This document shows, piece by piece, positions 4,910-38,197 of a stretch of 64,000 bases of DNA; the stretch's first letter is position 1; every line of letters starts with the position of its first letter. The stretch spans positions 62,001 to 126,000 of the forward strand of contig JAKPOP010000008.1 of NCBI GenBank assembly GCA_029547805.1, given 5' to 3'. The stretch comes from Deltaproteobacteria bacterium. Its GTDB lineage: Bacteria > Myxococcota_A > UBA9042 > DTJE01. Made by a program: the position numbers and the translations under genes. The notes beneath the pieces were generated by a model. The model was given only the letters and a program-made list of their open reading frames with translations. It ran no database searches and was not told where the DNA came from.

Positions 4910-4964
4910 CGGCCCGGGGCCCCTGGGGGGATAGTTGCTCGACACCGGCCCGGGGTGGCGATCG

Positions 4965-7121
4965 ATGGATGCGGAGCGGGGATTCTGCCCGGGGTGTGAC
5001 GGGGAGGGGCCCGTGGGATCTCCCTGTCCGGAGCGGGCGTGCAGCCGGCGGGGGCTCCACCGGATCCCCGAGGAGTGGCACCGGAGGCACCAGGGCCGGG
5101 GGCCGGACCGGATCGACCCGGTCATTGGCAGGCGGATCGACGACCATCTGGTGGTGGACCTGCTCGGTCGGGGCGGGTTCGGGAAGGTCTATCTGGTCCT
5201 CCAGGCGCCCCTGTGGATGAAGGCCGCCCTGAAACTGATGGAACCGGTTACCGAGGACCCGGAGATGGCCCGGGCCCTGGCCCGGAAGTTCGAGGGGGAG
5301 GCCCGTGCCCTGGCTCGCCTGTCCCATCCCAACGTGGTGCGGCTGCACAAGTACGGAACCGTCGGGGACCTTCCCTACCTGGTCATGGAATACGTCGAGG
5401 GCCGGACCCTGACGTCGGAGATGGGACGCCTGACCGCCCGTGGCGAGAGGATGCCTCCGGCGGTGTTGCGGCACGTGCTGGAACAGGTGATCAATGCCCT
5501 GGAGGCGGCCCATTCCCTGGACATCATCCACCGGGACATCAAGCCGGACAACGTGATGATCCAGGCGGTCCCCGGGGACCCTCACTTCGTCCGGGTGCTG
5601 GACTTCGGACTGGCCAAGTTCCTGGAGTCGCAACGGGACACGAGCCTGTTGCTGGGGACTCCGACCTTCATGGCCCCGGAGCAGATCACCCGGGAGGCCG
5701 TCGGGCCCTGGACCGACCTCTATGCGGTGGGGGTGCTGGCCTTCGAACTGCTCACCGGGAAGCGCCCCTTCGAGGGGGAGACGCCCCAGGAGATCATCGC
5801 GAAGAAACTGGACCCGGACCATGACCCCCTGGACCCCGGCGCCGGGCCGGAGGTCCCCGATGCCCTGCGGGAGTTCCTGCGCCGGGCCATCCACCGGGAC
5901 CCGGAGAAGCGGTTCCGGCAGGCGGCCCGGTTCCGGGAGGCGATGGAGGAGGCGTTTCGGCAGTGGGCCGAGGGGCCCGCCGACGATCGGACCGGGGGGA
6001 AGATCACGGTTCCCGCCGGGGAGGGGGCCGGGGCGGTGGCCGGTCCGGGGACGACCGGGAGGGTTCCCGAAGTTCGGGAGACGGTGTCGGCACCCCCGCG
6101 GGAGCCCCGGCCGAACTCCGAGGCCTCCCCTCGCCGACGGAGGGGAGGGGCGGCGGCCGGCCTGGCGATCCTGGCGACGGTTGCCGTCGCCGGGGTGATC
6201 GCTTGGAGACTGGGAGTCTTTCGGGGGCCCTCGGGACCGGAGGCTGCGTCTCCGGCGGCCGCGGCGGTCGTCGATGCAGGGCCCGATGGCACGGAAGGGG
6301 CGTCGGGAGCCATCGGTGCGGCGTCCCCGACCGAGGCGGGCGTGGACGCGCCCCCGGGATTCGTGGAGGTCCCTGCCGGGGAGTTCCTGATGGGGTCCCC
6401 GGACGACGAGGCCGGGCGCAAGGCGGACGAAGGACCGCAGCGATGGGTCCGGATCCCGCGGCCCTTCTGGATCCGGAAGACGGAGGTGACCCAGGGGGAG
6501 TGGCAGGCCCTGATGAAGAACAACCCCTCCTCGTTCCGGTCCTGCGGCCCCGATTGTCCGGTGGAGAACGTGTCCTGGTGGGACGCGGTGGCCTGGTGCA
6601 ACGCCCTGTCCCGCCGGGACGGCCTCGAGGAGTGCTATCGCCTGAAGGGCTGTCGCGGGCGGCCCGGCGAGACGGCCTACCGGTGTGCCGAGGCCCGATT
6701 CCTGGGGCCCCGGTGCAAGGGGTACCGGTTGCCGACGGAGGCCGAGTGGGAATACGCCGCCCGGGGCGGGTCCATCGGCCCCCACTACGGGGAGATCGAC
6801 GCCGTGGCCTGGTACCAGGGGAACAGCGGGGGCGCCCCGCGGCCCGTCGGGGGCAAGAGGCCCAACGCCTTCGGGCTGTACGACATGCTGGGCAACGTCT
6901 GGGAGTGGACCCAGGACGGCTACCGGGACTCCTACGAGGGGGCTCCGCTGGACGGTAGCGCCGTCGAGGCGTCCCAGGCGGGGGCGCGATCCCACCGGGG
7001 TGGGTCCTGGATCCTGGAGGCCCGGTCGGTGCGCGCCGCCGTCCGTCACGGCGGGGATCCGGATCTGCGCTACTACGGCCTGGGGCTGCGTCCCGTCCGG
7101 TCGATCCCCGGGCCCCCGTGA
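4965..7121 (+). CDS. Ser/Thr protein kinase fused to an FGE-sulfatase domain
   Basis: A 718-residue transmembrane kinase. Residues 8-26 hold four Cys in a zinc-ribbon-like pattern (CPGC then CPERAC). Residues 56-330 are a Hanks-type kinase domain with glycine loop GRGGFGKV, the lysine of AALK (about 90), HRDIKPDN (189-196), DFG (213-215) and GTPTFMAPEQ. A membrane helix lies at about 396-415 after a Pro/Arg linker. The exported C-terminal part from about 455 is a formylglycine-generating-enzyme/SUMF1-like domain with MGS, TEVTQGEW, ENVSWWDAVAWCN, RLPTEAEWEYAARGG and GNVWEWTQD. In this architecture the domain is usually thought to act as an extracellular sensor or binding module. The ATG at 4965 is preferred over an in-frame TTG at 4935. 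Confidence 0.93.
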   Translation: MDAERGFCPGCDGEGPVGSPCPERACSRRGLHRIPEEWHRRHQGRGPDRIDPVIGRRIDDHLVVDLLGRGGFGKVYLVLQAPLWMKAALKLMEPVTEDPEMARALARKFEGEARALARLSHPNVVRLHKYGTVGDLPYLVMEYVEGRTLTSEMGRLTARGERMPPAVLRHVLEQVINALEAAHSLDIIHRDIKPDNVMIQAVPGDPHFVRVLDFGLAKFLESQRDTSLLLGTPTFMAPEQITREAVGPWTDLYAVGVLAFELLTGKRPFEGETPQEIIAKKLDPDHDPLDPGAGPEVPDALREFLRRAIHRDPEKRFRQAARFREAMEEAFRQWAEGPADDRTGGKITVPAGEGAGAVAGPGTTGRVPEVRETVSAPPREPRPNSEASPRRRRGGAAAGLAILATVAVAGVIAWRLGVFRGPSGPEAASPAAAAVVDAGPDGTEGASGAIGAASPTEAGVDAPPGFVEVPAGEFLMGSPDDEAGRKADEGPQRWVRIPRPFWIRKTEVTQGEWQALMKNNPSSFRSCGPDCPVENVSWWDAVAWCNALSRRDGLEECYRLKGCRGRPGETAYRCAEARFLGPRCKGYRLPTEAEWEYAARGGSIGPHYGEIDAVAWYQGNSGGAPRPVGGKRPNAFGLYDMLGNVWEWTQDGYRDSYEGAPLDGSAVEASQAGARSHRGGSWILEARSVRAAVRHGGDPDLRYYGLGLRPVRSIPGPP

Positions 7122-7256: not shown

Positions 7257-9713
7257 ATGACGCATCACGTCCGCTGGCTCGGGATCGGGATGGTGGCCTG
7301 GGCCGCCTGTGGCGGGGGAGGAGCCGGCGACGCCGGGACCGACGCGGTCGAGATCCCCGTGGTCGTGGACCGGGACCTCGGCGGGCAGGACCGGTGGGCC
7401 TCCGACCCGGACCCCGGCGAGGGGCCGGACCAGTTCGAGGTCCGGGACTCCCTGGAAGAGGACACGGCGGAGGCCTGTGCGCCGGGATTCGCCGAGGCGG
7501 GATGCCCTTGTCGGGCCCCGAGCGACTGCCTCTCGGGGCTCTGCGTGGACACCCGGGATGGCCTGCGGTGCACGCTGGCCTGCCAGAGTTCGGACCCCTG
7601 CCCCCGGGGGTGGATCTGCGCGGTGATCTCCAACACCGGCAGCGACGTGGTCTATGGGTGCATCGACCCCTTCGCCCGGATCTGCCAGCCCTGTCGGGAG
7701 AACCCCGAGTGCGTCCCTGCCGTGGCGGCCCCGGGGGTGCGCTATTCGTGCATCCCCTTCGGGCCCGAGGGGGCCTTCTGCGGGGCCTCCTGCACAGGGG
7801 ACGGGGACTGCCCCGAGGGCTTCTTCTGCCGGGACACCGGAGGAACCGTCGGCAAGGCCTGCCTGCCCCCCGAGGGGAGCCCCTGTCCCTGCACCGAGAA
7901 GTACCGCCTCCAGGGAAACCTGACCGAGTGTTATGTCGAGAACACGTTCGGGACCTGCCGGGCCACCCGCACCTGTGACCAGGAGTGCCCGGCGAAGGAG
8001 CCCGAGGCCGAGACCTGCAATGCCGTGGATGACGACTGCGACGGGCAGACCGACGAGGAGGTGCCGCCGGAGAACTGCACGGTCCAGACGGAATACGGCC
8101 TCTGCCCCGGCACGACGGTCTGCGAGGGCGGTGGCCGGACGGTCTGCCAGGGGCAGGCCCCCTCGGAGGACGTCTGCGATGGCCTGGACAACGACTGCGA
8201 CGGCCTCACGGACCCCGAGGGGGCCAGGGGGTGCGTGACCTACTTCCGGGACGAGGACGGCGATGGTCGGGGCGTGACGGGGGACACGAAGTGCCTGTGC
8301 GCCCCGGACCCGCCCTACCGGGGGCTCTCGGGCGGGGACTGCGACGACCAGGACCAGTCGGTGTTCCCGGGGGCCCAGGAGCGGTGCAACGGCAAGGATG
8401 ACAACTGCAACGGGAAGACCGACGAGACCGGGGCCCAGGGATGCCGGACGTACTACCGGGACGAGGATGGCGACCGCTACGGGGTCGAGGAGGACGGCTG
8501 GTGCGAGTGCGGGCCCTTCGATGTCTACACGGCCACGCTCAAGGGCGACTGCAACGACCTGGTGCCCGAGGTGAATCCCGGCGCCATCGAGTCCTGCAAT
8601 GGCCGGGACGACGACTGCGACGGGCTGACCGACGAGGACGACGCCCAGGGGTGCACGCTGTACTACCAGGACCTCGACGGGGACCAGTTCGGCAAGAGCG
8701 ACGTCTTCGCCTGCAAGTGCCGGAAGACGCCCCCGTTCACGGCGACCCAGGGAGGGGACTGCAACGACAACGACAAGATGATCCGCCCCTCGGCGGTGGA
8801 GATCTGCAACGGCCTGGACGACAACTGTGACGGGCTGACCGACTCGACCGCCGTCGGCTACGAGGACCTGATGGGCTGCACGAGGTACTGGAAGGACCAG
8901 GACCGGGACGGCTACGGCAACGGGATGGATTCCAAGTGCCTGTGCAGCCCCCGGGACGACTACCAGGCACCCCAGCAGGAGCCGGTCGATTGCGACGACC
9001 GGGACAACCAGCGGTTCCCCGGGGCCACGGAGATCTGCAACGGCAAGGACGACGACTGCGACGGGTCCGTGGACGAGGCCGGGGCCGAGGGATGCAACCG
9101 GTACTACTACGACAGCGACCGGGACGGCTACGGGGTGACCAACAACAGCCAGTGCTACTGCGGGGGGTCTCCCAACGGCTGGTACACGGCGGTCCAGGGG
9201 GGCGACTGCGACGACACGAACCCCCTGGTAAGGCCGGGGGTCAGCGAGCGGTGCGACACCTCCTGGGACGACAACTGCAACGGGGAGGCCAATGAGGAGG
9301 GGGCCGCGGCCTGCCAGTGGTACATGCTGGATCAGGACGGCGACGGGTACGGCGTGGACGGCCCCCAGAAGTGCCTCTGTGGGCCCAAGGCGCCCTATAC
9401 CGGGATCGACGCCTCGGGGGATTGCTGCGACACCGACCCCAACGTCCACCATGGGCAGACGGGCTGGTTCACCCGACCGAGCAGGTGCGGCAACTTCGAC
9501 TACAGTTGCGATGGCCGGGAGGACAGGCAGTACAACGCCGTGGTCCGATGCGGCAGTTTCCCGGACTGCGGCAACAACGTCACGGCCGGCTGGAAGGGGT
9601 CCTCGATCCCCGAGTGCGGGCAGAGCGCCACCTGGTCCACCGACTGCTCGGGGTTCCTGGGGTTCAACTGCGAGGGGGACTCCTCCGGGACCCGCACCCA
9701 GGGCTGCCACTGA
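7257..9713 (+). CDS. MopE-repeat (putative metal-binding) surface lipoprotein 1
   Basis: An 818-residue exported protein. The N-terminus is a short signal peptide ending in AWAAC followed by GGGG, a plausible though imperfect lipobox. A Cys-rich region (about residues 75-250) precedes seven copies of the MopE-type motif CNGxDDxCDGxTDE, alternating with short modules that contain YYRDEDGDRYG-like and GGDCDD/GDCND segments, i.e. Asp-rich calcium-binding-like loops. The motif is known from the Methylococcus MopE copper-binding protein and is widespread in Myxococcota, where function is mostly untested. The C-terminal domain of about 75 residues ends TRTQGCH and is shared with the protein at 35774-38197. 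The start has a GGGGAGGG ribosome binding site. Confidence 0.9.
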   Translation: MTHHVRWLGIGMVAWAACGGGGAGDAGTDAVEIPVVVDRDLGGQDRWASDPDPGEGPDQFEVRDSLEEDTAEACAPGFAEAGCPCRAPSDCLSGLCVDTRDGLRCTLACQSSDPCPRGWICAVISNTGSDVVYGCIDPFARICQPCRENPECVPAVAAPGVRYSCIPFGPEGAFCGASCTGDGDCPEGFFCRDTGGTVGKACLPPEGSPCPCTEKYRLQGNLTECYVENTFGTCRATRTCDQECPAKEPEAETCNAVDDDCDGQTDEEVPPENCTVQTEYGLCPGTTVCEGGGRTVCQGQAPSEDVCDGLDNDCDGLTDPEGARGCVTYFRDEDGDGRGVTGDTKCLCAPDPPYRGLSGGDCDDQDQSVFPGAQERCNGKDDNCNGKTDETGAQGCRTYYRDEDGDRYGVEEDGWCECGPFDVYTATLKGDCNDLVPEVNPGAIESCNGRDDDCDGLTDEDDAQGCTLYYQDLDGDQFGKSDVFACKCRKTPPFTATQGGDCNDNDKMIRPSAVEICNGLDDNCDGLTDSTAVGYEDLMGCTRYWKDQDRDGYGNGMDSKCLCSPRDDYQAPQQEPVDCDDRDNQRFPGATEICNGKDDDCDGSVDEAGAEGCNRYYYDSDRDGYGVTNNSQCYCGGSPNGWYTAVQGGDCDDTNPLVRPGVSERCDTSWDDNCNGEANEEGAAACQWYMLDQDGDGYGVDGPQKCLCGPKAPYTGIDASGDCCDTDPNVHHGQTGWFTRPSRCGNFDYSCDGREDRQYNAVVRCGSFPDCGNNVTAGWKGSSIPECGQSATWSTDCSGFLGFNCEGDSSGTRTQGCH
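8016..9303 (+). repeat. Seven coding MopE-type Asp/Cys repeats
   Basis: The segment encodes seven imperfect copies of CNGxDDxCDGxTDE spaced by about 45-70 residues. The sixth copy has SVDE and the seventh (CDTSWDDNCNGEANEE) is the most divergent. Each copy offers Asp/Asn side chains suited to calcium binding and a conserved Cys pair. Confidence 0.85.
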
Positions 9714-9770: not shown

Positions 9771-12700
9771 TCAGTCCTCGGACCGGGCCAGGACCTCCAG
9801 CAGTTCCCGGCCGTGTCGCTCCATGAATCGCCCGCCGATTCCCGGGATGCGATAGAGGGCCTCCAGGGTCCTGGGCCGCTGGTCTGCCAGGGCGTGGAGG
9901 GACCGGTCCGTGAGGATCCGGAAGGCCGGGACCTCCTCTCGCCGGGCGACCTCCAGGCGCCATGCCCGCAGGGCCTCCAGCACCTCCCGGGCCGGTCCCG
10001 CCAGGGGGGCGGCCGGGACCCGAGCCTTCCTTCGCCCGGAGGAGGCCGGGGAGGCCTCGGGATGGACCTCGATGGGGAGGTGCAGGTCTTCCGGGGAGGA
10101 GGGCAGGGGGGCCCGGGGCATCCGGTGGGCCCGGCGGAAGGCGATCCGTCGGCCCTCCTTCTCCATCGCATCCTCGGCCAGGGCCAGCAGCCGGGCTCGC
10201 TGCATCGCCGACAGGAGGCGTTCGAAGTCGCTCCGGCTCGCTTGCTGGTTCGGACACACGGCCTGGTACAGAACCCCGGTCGCCTGCCCGTCCCGGCGAT
10301 GGAGGTGCTGCAGGACCGCGAAGGCCAGGGCCTTCTCCCGGTCATCGGCCTCCCGGAAGGTCCGGACCAGGCAGGCCGACGGGGCGCAGGTGTCGCAGAC
10401 CCCACAGGGGGGCGACCCCCGTTCCCCGAAGTGCGATACGAGGCGGGCCATCCGGCAGGACCCGGACCGGGCCACGTCGAGCATCTCGTCGGCCTGGGCC
10501 TCCCGGTGCCGCCGGACCTCCTCGTAGGAGGGCCGCCAGGGACCGTCGGCCCGGGTCACGAGGTCGTTGCCGTCCACCGACACCCCCTGGTGGATCCACA
10601 GTTTTTCCAGGGCGTTCTGGGCCACCTCCGGCTCCAGGCCGCAGAGGTCCAGCAGGTCCTCCCGGGGAATCCCGTCCCGGGGCACCATCTCCCGCAGGCG
10701 CGCCAGGACCTCCGCCGGGGGATAGTTGGCGGCGAAGAAACTCTCGTGGACCTTCAGGTCCGAGTACCCGTAGAAGAGCAGCGCCCGGGCTCCCTTCCCA
10801 TCCCGCCCGGCCCGGCCCACCTCCTGGTAATAGGCCTCGATGGACCCCGGCATGGCCAGGTGCACGACCGTGCGGACGTCCGCCTTGTCGATGCCCATCC
10901 CGAAGGCGACGGTGGCCACCACGGCCTCCAGGTCCCCTCGCTGGAAGGCCTCCTGGACCTCCTTGCGCCGGGCCGGGGGCATGCCGGCATGGTAGGGCGC
11001 CGCCGGGATCGCTTCCCGGAGGGTCTCGGCCACCTGCTCGGCGGTCTTCCGGGTCGGGCAGTAGAGGATCGCGGGTCGTCGGGCCGGGTCCCGGAGGATG
11101 CGGATCGCCTCTGACAGGCGCTGCGATGGGGGACGCTCCACCATCTCCAGGGCCAGGTCGTCCCGGCGGAAGCCCCGGACGAACCGTCGGGCCTTCGGGA
11201 CGTTCAACTGCTCGCAGATGTCCTGCTGGACCTTCACGGTGGCCGTCGCGGTCAGGGCCACCACCGAGGTGGGCATCAACAGCGGGAGTCGGTCCTTCAG
11301 CAACCGATAGTCGGGCCGGAAGTCGTGGCCCCAGTGGCTGATGCAGTGGGCCTCGTCGATGGCGATCAGCACCGGCCGTCGCTTCGCCAGCATCTCCGGG
11401 AATCCCGGGACCGCCAGGCGCTCCGGGGCGATGAATAAAAAGTCCAGTTCCGCCCGGAGGTACCGGAAACAGGTCTCCCGGCTGTCGGCCCGGTCGCGGC
11501 CCGAATGGATGCAGGCGGCCCGGATGCCCCGGCCTGCCAGGTGGGCCACCTGGTCCTCCATCAGGGCGATGAGGGGGCTGACCACCAGCGTGGTCCCGCC
11601 CCGGGCCAGGCCCGGCAACTGGTAGCAGAGGGACTTGCCGGCCCCCGTCGGCATCACCACGAGGGCATCCTCTCCCCGGGCCACCGCCTCGCAGACCTCC
11701 CGCTGTCCCTCCCGGAAGGACGACAGGCCCAGGCGGGACTGGAGCAGCCGGTCCAGGGAGTCCCCCTCCGGGACGGACATCCCCTTGGCGGGGGTCCCCG
11801 GGCCCGTGTCCTGCGCTGGGGTCTTCTCGGCGGGCCGCCGCGAGAGTCCCGAACCTTCCTGGTCCCCAGGCATCTGCCCGGTGGCGGCGGGTCGGGAGGT
11901 CCCGGGGGGACTGGCGGCGGAGGTCCCGGTCCCCGGGCCGCCGGGGCGCATCCCCTTCACCAGGTTCACCACCTCCACCACGTAGGCCTCGATCTCCGCC
12001 ATGAAGGCCTCGAGGGTTCCCTCCCCCCGTTCCATCCGTTTCAGGCGCAGTTCCCACTCGCCGGTCATCGCGGGGGACTTCACCTTCTCGTGGACCACGT
12101 CGATCAGGGCGATGCCCTCCTCGGTGGCCCGGAGGGTCTTGCCCTTCCGCTCGACATAGCCCCGCTGGATCAACGTCTCCAGGATCGCGGCCCGGGTGGC
12201 CGGCGTCCCCAGGCCACGCTCCTTCATGGCCTCTTCCAGTTCCCGGTCCTCCAGGACCCGGCCGGCGGTCTCCATGGCCGTCAGCAGCGTGGCGTCGGTG
12301 AAGCGTTTCGGCGGCGAGGTCTCCTTCCGCTGGACCTCGCATGCCGTCACCGTCCACCCGGGCCCGGGGGCCAGGCCGTCAGGCAGTTTCCGGGCCTCCT
12401 CCTCGGGGAACTCGTCGCCTTCGCCGCCGGAGTCCGGGCCTGAGGGCGCCTTCCGCTTCCGGGTCTTCTTCCCGCTGCCCTCGGCCCGGGTCCCCTGGGG
12501 ATCCAGCACCTTCCAGCCCACCTGGGTGACCAGCGTGCCGGTGGACCGGAAGTGGTCCCGGAGGCCTCCCTCTGAATCCACCGCCGTGATCACCGTCGTG
12601 ACCCGGGTCCGGTGATCCCCGTGCCAGGCCATCAGCAGGCGCCGACAGACCAGGTCGTAGATGCGGGCCTCGTCCTGTGACAGGACCTTCCCATCAGGAC

Positions 12701-13877
12701 TGGTGGCCGTCGGCAGGATGGCGTGGTGGTCCGTGACCTTGCCATCGTCCACGAACCGGGGTCCGAGGGGGCGGACTCCGGTGCCCGGGGCCACCGCATC
12801 GCCGTAGCGCGGCGCGATGCGGTCCGTCACCGCCTGGAGGCGTTCCGCCACGGTCCGGGAGATGTGCCGGGAGTCGGTCCGGGGATAGGTGATCAGCTTG
12901 TGGCGCTCGTAGAGGGCCTGAGCCGCCGCCAGGGTCTCGTTGGCCGTCAGCCCGTAGAGGCGGTTCGCGTGGCGCTGCAGCTCCGCCAGGTCGTAGAACT
13001 GGGGAGGCGGCTGAGACCGGTCCTGGCCGCTCAGGGACAGGACCTCCGCCGGGCGACCGATCACCCGATCCCGGATTTCCTGCGCCGGGGCCGGATCCGC
13101 CGGCAGCCGGGAGGCCAGGCGCACGTCTCCTCCCTCGCCTCCGGCCCGGGCGGGGTCGAACCAGAGACCCTGGAAGGAACGCGGTCCCTCCCCGAAGGTG
13201 GCCAGGACCTCGTGGTAGGCCTCGGGGACGAATGCCTGGATGGCCTTCTCCCGCTCGACGATCATGGCCAGGGTCGGGGTCTGGACCCGGCCCACCGATA
13301 GCAGGCGCCGCTGGTCCTCGCCGGGTCTCCGGCCGAACCGCAGGCTGTAGGCTCGGGTGAGGTTCATGCCCACCAGCCAGTCGGCCCTGGCCCTGGCCTC
13401 GGCGGCTCGGGCCAGGGCGTCGTATTCGGCCCCAGGGCGCAGGTCGTCGAAGGCCTCGCGGATCGCCTCGGGGGTCAGGGACGAGACCCAGAGGCGCTGG
13501 ACCGGCGCGGTGGCCCCCGAGAGGCGGTAGATGTAGCGGAAGATCAGTTCCCCCTCCCGGCCGGCGTCGGTGGCGCACACGATCCGCTCCGTGTCCGGTG
13601 CGGTCAGGATCCGGACCACCTGGTCGAAGTGGTCCTTCGTCTGGGGGATGGGGGTCAGGGGCCACTCCCGGGGCAGGATCGGGATCCGGTCGAAGCGCCA
13701 GGCCTTCCACTCGGCCTGCATCTGGCCGGGTTCGGAGATGCCCACCAGGTGGCCCACGGCCCAGGTCACCAGGTACCCGTTGCCGGAGATGGCCGACGGG
13801 CTGCGGCGGGAGGCCCCCAGCACCGCCGCCAGGTCCCTCGCCACCGACGGTTTTTCCGCCACCACCACGACGGCCAT
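9771..13877 (-). CDS. topB-recQ: Fused DNA topoisomerase III - RecQ helicase
   Basis: A single 1368-residue frame. Residues 1-140 are a TOPRIM domain (VVAEKPSVARD at the start, TDAGREGE at 103-110). Residues 150-640 are the type IA topoisomerase body with GRVQTPT at 196-202 and the catalytic tyrosine at about 331 in LITYPRTDSRHIS. A low-complexity Gly/Pro/Ser linker spans about 643-705. From 710 follows a RecQ helicase: Walker A MPTGAGKS (742-749), DEAHCISHWGHDFRP (841-855), the second helicase lobe with YYQEVGRAGRDG, a RecQ zinc site (CRMARLV...CGVCDTC), and a C-terminal HRDC domain (about 1290-1368). RecQ and topoisomerase III act together to dissolve crossed DNA strands; here they are one chain. 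All key residues look intact. Confidence 0.95.
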   Translation of the reverse strand: MAVVVVAEKPSVARDLAAVLGASRRSPSAISGNGYLVTWAVGHLVGISEPGQMQAEWKAWRFDRIPILPREWPLTPIPQTKDHFDQVVRILTAPDTERIVCATDAGREGELIFRYIYRLSGATAPVQRLWVSSLTPEAIREAFDDLRPGAEYDALARAAEARARADWLVGMNLTRAYSLRFGRRPGEDQRRLLSVGRVQTPTLAMIVEREKAIQAFVPEAYHEVLATFGEGPRSFQGLWFDPARAGGEGGDVRLASRLPADPAPAQEIRDRVIGRPAEVLSLSGQDRSQPPPQFYDLAELQRHANRLYGLTANETLAAAQALYERHKLITYPRTDSRHISRTVAERLQAVTDRIAPRYGDAVAPGTGVRPLGPRFVDDGKVTDHHAILPTATSPDGKVLSQDEARIYDLVCRRLLMAWHGDHRTRVTTVITAVDSEGGLRDHFRSTGTLVTQVGWKVLDPQGTRAEGSGKKTRKRKAPSGPDSGGEGDEFPEEEARKLPDGLAPGPGWTVTACEVQRKETSPPKRFTDATLLTAMETAGRVLEDRELEEAMKERGLGTPATRAAILETLIQRGYVERKGKTLRATEEGIALIDVVHEKVKSPAMTGEWELRLKRMERGEGTLEAFMAEIEAYVVEVVNLVKGMRPGGPGTGTSAASPPGTSRPAATGQMPGDQEGSGLSRRPAEKTPAQDTGPGTPAKGMSVPEGDSLDRLLQSRLGLSSFREGQREVCEAVARGEDALVVMPTGAGKSLCYQLPGLARGGTTLVVSPLIALMEDQVAHLAGRGIRAACIHSGRDRADSRETCFRYLRAELDFLFIAPERLAVPGFPEMLAKRRPVLIAIDEAHCISHWGHDFRPDYRLLKDRLPLLMPTSVVALTATATVKVQQDICEQLNVPKARRFVRGFRRDDLALEMVERPPSQRLSEAIRILRDPARRPAILYCPTRKTAEQVAETLREAIPAAPYHAGMPPARRKEVQEAFQRGDLEAVVATVAFGMGIDKADVRTVVHLAMPGSIEAYYQEVGRAGRDGKGARALLFYGYSDLKVHESFFAANYPPAEVLARLREMVPRDGIPREDLLDLCGLEPEVAQNALEKLWIHQGVSVDGNDLVTRADGPWRPSYEEVRRHREAQADEMLDVARSGSCRMARLVSHFGERGSPPCGVCDTCAPSACLVRTFREADDREKALAFAVLQHLHRRDGQATGVLYQAVCPNQQASRSDFERLLSAMQRARLLALAEDAMEKEGRRIAFRRAHRMPRAPLPSSPEDLHLPIEVHPEASPASSGRRKARVPAAPLAGPAREVLEALRAWRLEVARREEVPAFRILTDRSLHALADQRPRTLEALYRIPGIGGRFMERHGRELLEVLARSED

Positions 13878-35773: not shown

Positions 35774-38197
35774 ATGCGCCGGTCGATCCCCTGGGTGGTC
35801 GTGTTGGCAATCTCGTGCGGGGATGGCGGGACCACGCCGTCGGGTCAGGACCTGCTTCCAGGGGACCCCGGCGGACGGGACCTCTCGGCTCAGGACCCCG
35901 GGCCCGGGGAGGACCCGGGACGGGACCCGGGCATGCCCGACCCCGGGCGGGACGTGGCCGACATCCCGGCGCTGGACAACGGGGGCGACGTCGGAGGGAC
36001 CGATGAGGGCCCCGGATGTCCGGGCAACTTCGGCTGCCCCTGCACCGGCAACAACGAGTGCATCAGCGGCTTCTGCATCGAGTCGATCGGGGGCCGGCAG
36101 TGCACCCGGGTCTGCGTCACCGAGGACTCCTGCCCGACCGGCTGGTCGTGCAGCCAGAACACGCTGGGCGGCGAGACGATCTACCTGTGCGTGGACCCCT
36201 TCAGCACCTTGTGCCGTCCGTGCCGCACCGACCGGGACTGCGTGCCCTCGGTCGGGACCGGCTCCGGGCGCTACGCCTGCCTGCCCTTCGGCAACGAGGG
36301 GTCGTTCTGCGGGACGGGCTGCACCGGTACGGCCGGGTGCCCCGATGGCTACGAGTGCCTGGAGGTCTCGGGGGTGGGCGGTGGCCGCTGGTGCGTGCCC
36401 GCGGACGGGGGCGCCTGCCCCTGCACGGACTACATGCGCCAGGAGGGCTTTCTGACGGACTGCCAGAACGAGAACGAGTCCGGGTCCTGTCCCGGCACCC
36501 GGACGTGCGCCCAGGCGTGCCAGGGACGGATCCCCGCGGCCGAGACCTGCAACGCCATCGACGACAACTGCAACGGGGCCACCGACGAGGGAACCGCGGG
36601 GCGCCCCTGTGACCTGACCAACGAGCACGGGACCTGTCCAGGCACGACATCCTGCAAGAACGGCGAGATCTTCTGCGAGGGGACGCCCCCGAAGACCGAG
36701 GTCTGCAACGGCGTGGACGACAACTGCGACGGGGTCACCGACCCCGAAGGGGCTGGACAGTGCACGACCTGGTACCGGGACGGTGACGGGGACGGGGCGG
36801 GGGTGACCGGCGATGGCCGCTGCCTCTGCTCCCCCCAGAGCCCCTACACGGCCACCGTGCCCGGGGACTGCAATGACCAGAACGCTCAGGTGAAGCCCGG
36901 TGCCCTGGAGATCTGCAACGGCATCGACGACAACTGCGATGGCCGGACCGACGAGGAGGGGGCCTCCAACTGCCTGCGTTTCTATCGCGATGACGATGGG
37001 GACGGGGTCGGGGCGCCAAGGACGGACCGGTGCCTCTGTGCGGCCCAGAGCCCCTGGACCTCCTCCCGGGGCGACGACTGCAACGACCAGGACGCCGCGG
37101 TGTCGCCCCTGAAGGCGGAGGTCTGCAACGGCGTCGATGACAACTGCGACGGGCAGACGGACGAGGGGACCGCCGGGCGGGCCTGTTCGGTGGACAACGA
37201 GTACGGGTCCTGTCCCGGGACATCGACCTGCGATTCCGGGACCCTTGGCTGCTCGGGGCGCCTCCCGGCGCCCGAGTCGTGCAACGGCGTGGACGACGAC
37301 TGCAACGGCCAGACCGACGAGGCCGGCGCCGCAGGCTGCTCCGACTGGTACATGGACAACGACGGCGACGGTTGGGGCGTGGCGGGGGATTCCCGCTGCC
37401 TCTGCCAGGCCGAGGGGAACTACCGGGTTCGGGGGGACCACCTGGGAGACTGCAACGACCGGGACGGGGGAGTCCATCCCGGCGCGCCGGAGGCGTGCAA
37501 CGGCAAGGACGACAACTGCGATGGCCGGACCGACGAGGAGGGGGCGACGGGATGCTCCACCCTCTATCTGGACCTGGACGGCGACTCCTGGGGCGCCGTG
37601 GGCAGCAACAAGTGCCTCTGTCCCCTGGGGGGACTGCCGGGATATACCGCCACCCGCGGCCAGGACTGCGACGACCAGGACGCCGCAGTGAACCCCGGGG
37701 CGTCGGAGCGGTGCACGCTGGCGGGAGGCACGACCAAGGACGAGGACTGCGACGGTTTCACCGACGAGGAGGGCGCCGCCGGGTGCGTGAACTACTTCCG
37801 GGACCAGGATGGCGACTCCTGGGGCAGCCAGAGCGAGGTGAAGTGCCTCTGCGCGGCCCAGGGGGAGTTCACCGCGACCCGGTCGGGCGACTGCTGCGAC
37901 CTGGATGCCCGGGCACTGCCGGGCCAGACGGGCTGGTTCACCCAGGCCAACGTCTGCGGCAGTTTCGACTACGACTGCAGCGGCGTCGCCGAGAAGCAGT
38001 ATGGGTCGGCCAACGGCCGCTGCACGGACTGGGCCATCGGGACGGGGTGTCAGCTGGAGCCGGGCTGGCAGGGGGCGACGGTGCCAAACTGTGGCCAGAC
38101 GCAGAACTACGTCACCGGTGGCTGCGGCTATTGCTGCATCGCGTGGGTCTGCTGCTGCGACCCCGAGTATTCCAGCCGCACTCAAGGGTGCCATTGA
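35774..38197 (+). CDS. MopE-repeat (putative metal-binding) surface lipoprotein 2
   Basis: An 807-residue paralogue of the protein at 7257-9713. Signal MRRSIPWVVVLAISC gives a lipobox, followed by an Asp/Gly/Pro-rich spacer. A Cys-rich region has the same order of blocks as the paralogue (CPCTGNNECISGFC, then CLPFGNEGSFCGTGC). Seven MopE-type motifs follow, with short YRDGDGDGAGVTGDGRCLC-like modules between them. The seventh motif is split by an insertion (CTLAGGTTKDEDCDGFTDEE). The final domain ends SSRTQGCH and has an extra Cys cluster (CGYCCIAWVCCC) absent from the paralogue. Export and metal or calcium binding are expected; the true ligand is unknown. Confidence 0.92.
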   Translation: MRRSIPWVVVLAISCGDGGTTPSGQDLLPGDPGGRDLSAQDPGPGEDPGRDPGMPDPGRDVADIPALDNGGDVGGTDEGPGCPGNFGCPCTGNNECISGFCIESIGGRQCTRVCVTEDSCPTGWSCSQNTLGGETIYLCVDPFSTLCRPCRTDRDCVPSVGTGSGRYACLPFGNEGSFCGTGCTGTAGCPDGYECLEVSGVGGGRWCVPADGGACPCTDYMRQEGFLTDCQNENESGSCPGTRTCAQACQGRIPAAETCNAIDDNCNGATDEGTAGRPCDLTNEHGTCPGTTSCKNGEIFCEGTPPKTEVCNGVDDNCDGVTDPEGAGQCTTWYRDGDGDGAGVTGDGRCLCSPQSPYTATVPGDCNDQNAQVKPGALEICNGIDDNCDGRTDEEGASNCLRFYRDDDGDGVGAPRTDRCLCAAQSPWTSSRGDDCNDQDAAVSPLKAEVCNGVDDNCDGQTDEGTAGRACSVDNEYGSCPGTSTCDSGTLGCSGRLPAPESCNGVDDDCNGQTDEAGAAGCSDWYMDNDGDGWGVAGDSRCLCQAEGNYRVRGDHLGDCNDRDGGVHPGAPEACNGKDDNCDGRTDEEGATGCSTLYLDLDGDSWGAVGSNKCLCPLGGLPGYTATRGQDCDDQDAAVNPGASERCTLAGGTTKDEDCDGFTDEEGAAGCVNYFRDQDGDSWGSQSEVKCLCAAQGEFTATRSGDCCDLDARALPGQTGWFTQANVCGSFDYDCSGVAEKQYGSANGRCTDWAIGTGCQLEPGWQGATVPNCGQTQNYVTGGCGYCCIAWVCCCDPEYSSRTQGCH
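36548..37780 (+). repeat. Seven coding MopE-type Asp/Cys repeats
   Basis: The segment encodes copies of CNGxDDxCDGxTDE at about 45-70-residue spacing. Copies one and four are followed by a different linker (GTAGR.C....E.G.CPGT) that suggests an internal duplication of a larger unit within this gene. Confidence 0.85.

Follow-up and report, generated by a model that had tools for sequence, protein, structure and literature searches.

The topoisomerase III–RecQ fusion gene occupies positions 9771–13877 on the minus strand of the 64,000-nucleotide stretch analyzed here ('the window'), and comprises 1368 codons plus a stop in a single unbroken frame. The same frame on the plus strand of 9771–13877 is interrupted by stops. 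The encoded polypeptide begins with a topoisomerase III at its N-terminus, continues through a linker rich in Pro and Ala, and ends in a RecQ helicase that carries a zinc site and an HRDC domain. The Pfam domains follow in the order Toprim, Topoisom_bac, DEAD, Helicase_C, RecQ_Zn_bind and HRDC, all above cut-off. GC content at the three codon positions (0.73/0.51/0.91) displays the coding pattern typical for real genes here. The gene is solitary: its flanking genes on both sides lie on the opposite strand and bear no relation to DNA repair. The features of the gene are:

13479–13868, minus strand: Toprim domain, residues 4–133, with E8 and TDAGREGE (13548–13571); Pfam PF01751, residues invariant in 29 fusions
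12000–13424, minus strand: type IA topoisomerase core, residues 152–626, with catalytic Tyr331 in YPRTDS (12870–12887); PF01131 at 334 bits, NCBIfam topo 3, AF2
11760–11951, minus strand: flexible linker, approximately residues 643–706, rich in P, A, S, G and T; 18–129 residues in relatives
11223–11711, minus strand: RecQ RecA-like domain 1, residues 723–885, with Walker A GAGKS and DEAH; PF00270
10797–11099, minus strand: RecQ RecA-like domain 2, residues 927–1027, with motif VI GRAGRDG; PF00271
10545–10724, minus strand: winged-helix-like insertion before the zinc site, approximately residues 1052–1111; AF2 secondary structure and alignment
10386–10523, minus strand: RecQ zinc-binding subdomain, residues 1119–1164, with four invariant cysteines; PF16124
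10122–10358, minus strand: diverged winged-helix-like fold where an RQC domain would lie, approximately residues 1174–1252; AF2 and structural alignment to RecQ cores
9789–9986, minus strand: HRDC domain, residues 1298–1363; PF00570, 9.7e-20

Two complete enzymes in one frame

The topoisomerase half scores above both NCBIfam topoisomerase III cut-offs (PRK07726, 634.9 versus 597; TIGR01056, 529.1 versus 515.75), and the Toprim acidic residues and active-site tyrosine of the type IA core are present and invariant in 29 fusions. An AF2 model of this half (pLDDT 84) has E. coli topoisomerase III as its best match in the PDB, with a TM score of 0.79. The decatenation loop is a feature of E. coli topoisomerase III that is absent from topoisomerase I; the segment aligned to it is present in the fusions, and is variable among them in both sequence and length.

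The helicase half matches the RecQ family model TIGR00614 with a score of 378 (cut-off 219.8), and contains the SF2 core motifs, Walker A and B, motif VI and a four-cysteine zinc site, the residues checked being invariant. Its AF2 model, generated separately from that of the topoisomerase half, has a pLDDT of 88.8 and matches the RecQ cores of D. radiodurans, E. coli and human with Z scores of up to 33.8. Pfam returned no match to an RQC domain in this half; it missed a winged-helix-like fold that the AF2 model places at the RQC position, identified from the order of its secondary structure elements, and the structural alignment to RecQ cores 4q48 and 1oyy reaches model residue 577–578, thereby covering that position. 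The insertion preceding the zinc site is absent in Bacillus RecQ and longer in Bacteroidota RecQs in our alignment. The order of helices and strands suggests that the insertion and the segment at the RQC position are both winged-helix-like. At least four fusions (G069, G225, G245 and G091) lack the HRDC domain.

A first-pass annotation of this DNA had placed a continuous 1368-residue frame at 9771–13877, which is correct (it did not state that the gene lies on the minus strand), and had described both enzymes as intact. That description holds for the type IA topoisomerase, in which TDAGREGE (residues 103–110) and YPRTDS (residues 331–336) are both present, and equally for a RecQ with zinc site and HRDC domain, given that DEAD, Helicase_C, RecQ_Zn_bind and HRDC each exceed their Pfam cut-offs.

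We read and aligned 29 fused frames (this one included), the 28 others coming from independent assemblies; in neither half does any of the catalytic and zinc-site residues checked vary among them. The annotation's suspicion that similar fusions exist in related genomes is thus borne out. Its other concern, a frameshift or stop in the linker region (approximately 11760–11950), is ruled out by comparison with a congener (86–87% protein identity), since the frame is intact, every indel in the aligned proteins is a whole number of codons, and the dN/dS pattern (approximately 0.17 for the topoisomerase half, 0.64 for the linker and 0.14 for the RecQ half) indicates that purifying selection acts on both enzyme halves. 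The 28 additional frames, together with the whole-codon indels, likewise exclude a sequencing artefact. Judged by these further open frames from independent genome assemblies, the fusion is far beyond chance.

The fast-evolving linker is 18 to 129 residues long across fusions, and approximately two-thirds of it consists of P, A, S, G and T. A disordered segment of this kind is a plausible protease target, and a methionine (Met700) sits at its end, so that the gene might conceivably yield two proteins by linker proteolysis or an internal start and amount functionally to an operon in one frame. We regard this as quite improbable: Met700 is neither accompanied by a Shine-Dalgarno match nor conserved, the fusions share no internal start with a ribosome-binding site, and two of them lack any candidate start codon in the linker. 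The gene is presumably translated as one polypeptide.

Distribution and evolutionary history

Under even sampling, the fusion is present in 19 of 141 Myxococcota genomes (families f1, f3, f8, f18, f21, f30 and f39) and in 5 of 119 Acidobacteriota genomes. The Myxococcota count includes one genome (G003) in which a contig break cuts the fusion within its linker. In protein searches, fused genes turned up in other members of the family to which the genome examined here belongs and in more distant Myxococcota, as well as in genome_contigs records with the titles Acidobacteria, Bryobacterales and Competibacteraceae, the last being a single MAG assigned by record title only. The viral contigs searched contained no relative of the fusion; the plasmids searched contained only stand-alone topoisomerase III (35–38% identity), none of whose records spanned 80% of the query; and PHROGs produced matches to the separate halves only, none to the whole fusion.

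The genome examined here (4.08 Mb in 32 contigs, 97% complete) has Topoisom_bac matches in two genes, the fusion and a TopA (by NCBIfam), and a single gene, the fusion, scores above the RecQ cut-off. Neither a stand-alone topB nor a stand-alone recQ, for which the first-pass annotation had proposed a search, was found, and by this census the fusion is the genome's sole source of topoisomerase III and RecQ activities. The same arrangement prevails among the 21 fused genomes surveyed. In 19 of them the fusion is the sole RecQ, the exceptions being G019, with two additional RecQs, and G091, with one. All 21 carry a single type IA gene besides the fusion, apparently TopA; a few extra hits represent fragments or split matches. 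One genome (G006) contains, at a contig edge (G006:C459:4-705), a second partial N-terminal topoisomerase half of the fused type with 69% identity to P0001, representing either a strain mixture or a duplicate.

Relatives that lack the fusion fall into several patterns. Three genomes of the same family (G004, G007 and G010, of which G004 and G010 are incomplete) and two nearby ones (G013 and G018) have neither RecQ nor topoisomerase III. Seven genomes from families f9, f15 and f18 (G020, G027, G033, G059, G078, G081 and G085) have a stand-alone RecQ of the same subfamily and a single type IA gene, with no topoisomerase III match. In f6, the genomes surveyed carry, as a second type IA gene, a member of another topoisomerase III clade. 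Three stand-alone topoisomerase IIIs (L160 in G080, L162 in G221 and L163 in G088) lie in open frames of 1148–1937 codons with no RecQ match; these long frames may reflect extensions of another kind, or may be open by chance because the DNA is GC-rich.

The topoisomerase halves of all fusions group in a single clade that excludes stand-alone topoisomerase IIIs (SH-aLRT 99, rising to 100 with more taxa). A single clade of fused RecQ halves was rejected (AU p 6e-5). Because the fused topoisomerase halves are monophyletic and the RecQ halves are not, the topoisomerase half has probably been lost repeatedly. The clearest case, from its position in the tree, is an apparent recent loss within genus g61 (f18), where one genome (G245; L150, G245:C75) is fused and another (G081; L119, G081:C12) has a RecQ without the topoisomerase half. 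The two RecQs are 77% identical over their shared part, and an unrelated gene lies upstream in G081. No topoisomerase remnants were found upstream of the stand-alone RecQs. The simplest reading of the trees would be one fusion event, with horizontal transfer or deep inheritance accounting for its spread between phyla and with repeated loss of the topoisomerase half thereafter; alternatives are several fusions from one topoisomerase lineage, or domain exchange.

Within family f1 the neighbors of the fusion locus are constant (a MopE-repeat gene, a ferritin and a pilin), which indicates vertical inheritance of the fusion there. In the window, the MopE-type metal-binding repeat protein that is a conserved neighbor in several f1 genomes is encoded at 7257–9713, and a second gene homologous to it lies at 35774–38197. 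A Ser/Thr protein kinase fused to a formylglycine-generating-enzyme-like (FGE-sulfatase) domain is encoded at 4935–7121.

Reverse gyrase and DpdF as candidate identities

Two other identities were considered for a protein of this composition. Reverse gyrase, which introduces positive supercoils, is likewise a fusion of a type IA topoisomerase and an SF2 helicase, so that the two broad enzyme classes are identical (PMC8185306), and the fusion weakly matches the rgy model. The score (111.8) is nonetheless far below the cut-off of 471.7, and the domain order is opposite: reverse gyrase has an N-terminal, non-RecQ helicase without zinc site or HRDC domain, whereas the helicase here is C-terminal and a true RecQ with both, joined to an N-terminal topoisomerase III. 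We therefore reject this identity, and consider a reverse-gyrase-like enzyme very improbable.

Fainter still is the prospect that the protein belongs to a Dpd (7-deazaguanine-in-DNA) defense system. The suggestion derives from the PADLOC-DB model PDLC02865, labeled 'DpdF' and 1499 positions long, which matches both halves of the fusions end to end, and from a tgt gene nearby. That tgt and a nearby queA are canonical tRNA enzymes, however, no other Dpd gene is present among eight neighbors, and the NCBIfam DpdF model scores only 200.5 against a cut-off of 550; the identity was rejected on these grounds. Since the PADLOC model itself spans the topoisomerase III half, it appears to have been built from topoisomerase III–RecQ fusions, which it would wrongly label as defense genes under a defense-helicase name that reflects neither that half nor the dissolvasome-like composition. 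It also follows that such sequences are already in public databases under the misleading name DpdF. A search of the open-access literature found no published natural topoisomerase III–RecQ fusion, a scope that makes this weak evidence of absence.

A probable tethered RecQ–topoisomerase III unlinking enzyme

The fusion joins the same two enzymes as E. coli TopB and RecQ, its topoisomerase half matching E. coli topoisomerase III structures and its other half RecQ cores. In E. coli these are separate proteins, whereas here they are covalently joined and each is the sole copy. The E. coli enzymes reportedly do not interact physically, and PMC7140829 describes the evidence for their joint action as weak and argues that a toposome is not established in that species. 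The eukaryotic dissolvasomes (Sgs1–Top3–Rmi1 and BLM–TOP3A–RMI1/2) similarly hold a RecQ helicase with an HRDC domain together with topoisomerase III, a likeness that supports analogous unlinking, but do so with separate chains bridged by RMI proteins rather than in a single chain; Pfam detected no OB-fold RMI domain in the fusion. In dissolution, RecQ and topoisomerase III are reported to cooperate, with the helicase branch-migrating and opening DNA and the topoisomerase unlinking the strands (PMC8191776).

Encoded as one continuous frame, RecQ and topoisomerase III would be physically associated, and the gene product is probably a covalent RecQ–topoisomerase III unlinking enzyme, in which a decatenating topoisomerase III is tethered to a 3'-5' RecQ. 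The RecQ half would load on a junction, gap or converging-fork intermediate, then unwind and branch-migrate it, supplying single-stranded DNA to which the tether would bring topoisomerase III. The latter would cut one strand via Tyr331, pass the other strand and reseal, such that the last links of hemicatenanes, double Holliday junctions or precatenanes would be removed without crossover. The linker would ensure 1:1 delivery, in place of the weak or SSB-mediated partnership in other bacteria. Catalysis, coupling and which of these three substrates matters in the cell are what we infer. The first-pass annotation's interpretation of a natural fusion of complete topoisomerase III and RecQ stands, while its 'minimal dissolvasome', like double-Holliday-junction activity, is putative. 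The absence of the HRDC domain from four fusions (G069, G225, G245 and G091) implies that the function common to all of them may be general unlinking and not specifically double-Holliday-junction dissolution.

Fusion might instead be a mere convenience that provides equal amounts of two independently acting enzymes with no mechanistic coupling. The long, disordered and unconserved linker (18–129 residues) would suit such an arrangement, as would the history of f18, in which the RecQ of one genome was kept and its topoisomerase half lost (G081) while a member of the same genus remains fused (G245). Yet two phyla retain a fusion that apparently arose once, fused genomes contain almost no stand-alone copy of either activity, and close f1 relatives lack both activities rather than one of the two; we therefore consider mere convenience unlikely. 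The stand-alone RecQs without topoisomerase III in f9, f15 and f18 indicate that RecQ does not need the topoisomerase half everywhere, and together with the HRDC-less fusions they suggest that covalent coupling is favored, not indispensable. On balance we lean toward a single-polypeptide bacterial dissolvasome: obligately coupled, formed apparently once and common to Myxococcota and Acidobacteriota, serving as the cell's only decatenating topoisomerase III and only RecQ, and later deprived of its topoisomerase half in some lineages.

Because the bacterial topoisomerase III–RecQ 'toposome' is disputed, a conserved fusion with intact active sites matters, and it constitutes strong genomic evidence for a functionally meaningful pairing in bacteria. 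As a single gene encoding a single protein, the fusion also offers a reagent with which helicase–topoisomerase coupling can be measured in the absence of RMI proteins, and the genus-mates G245 and G081 provide a natural comparison with and without the topoisomerase half. With relatives of the fused gene in at least two bacterial phyla, the question of whether the two enzymes act as one machine becomes directly testable in bacteria.
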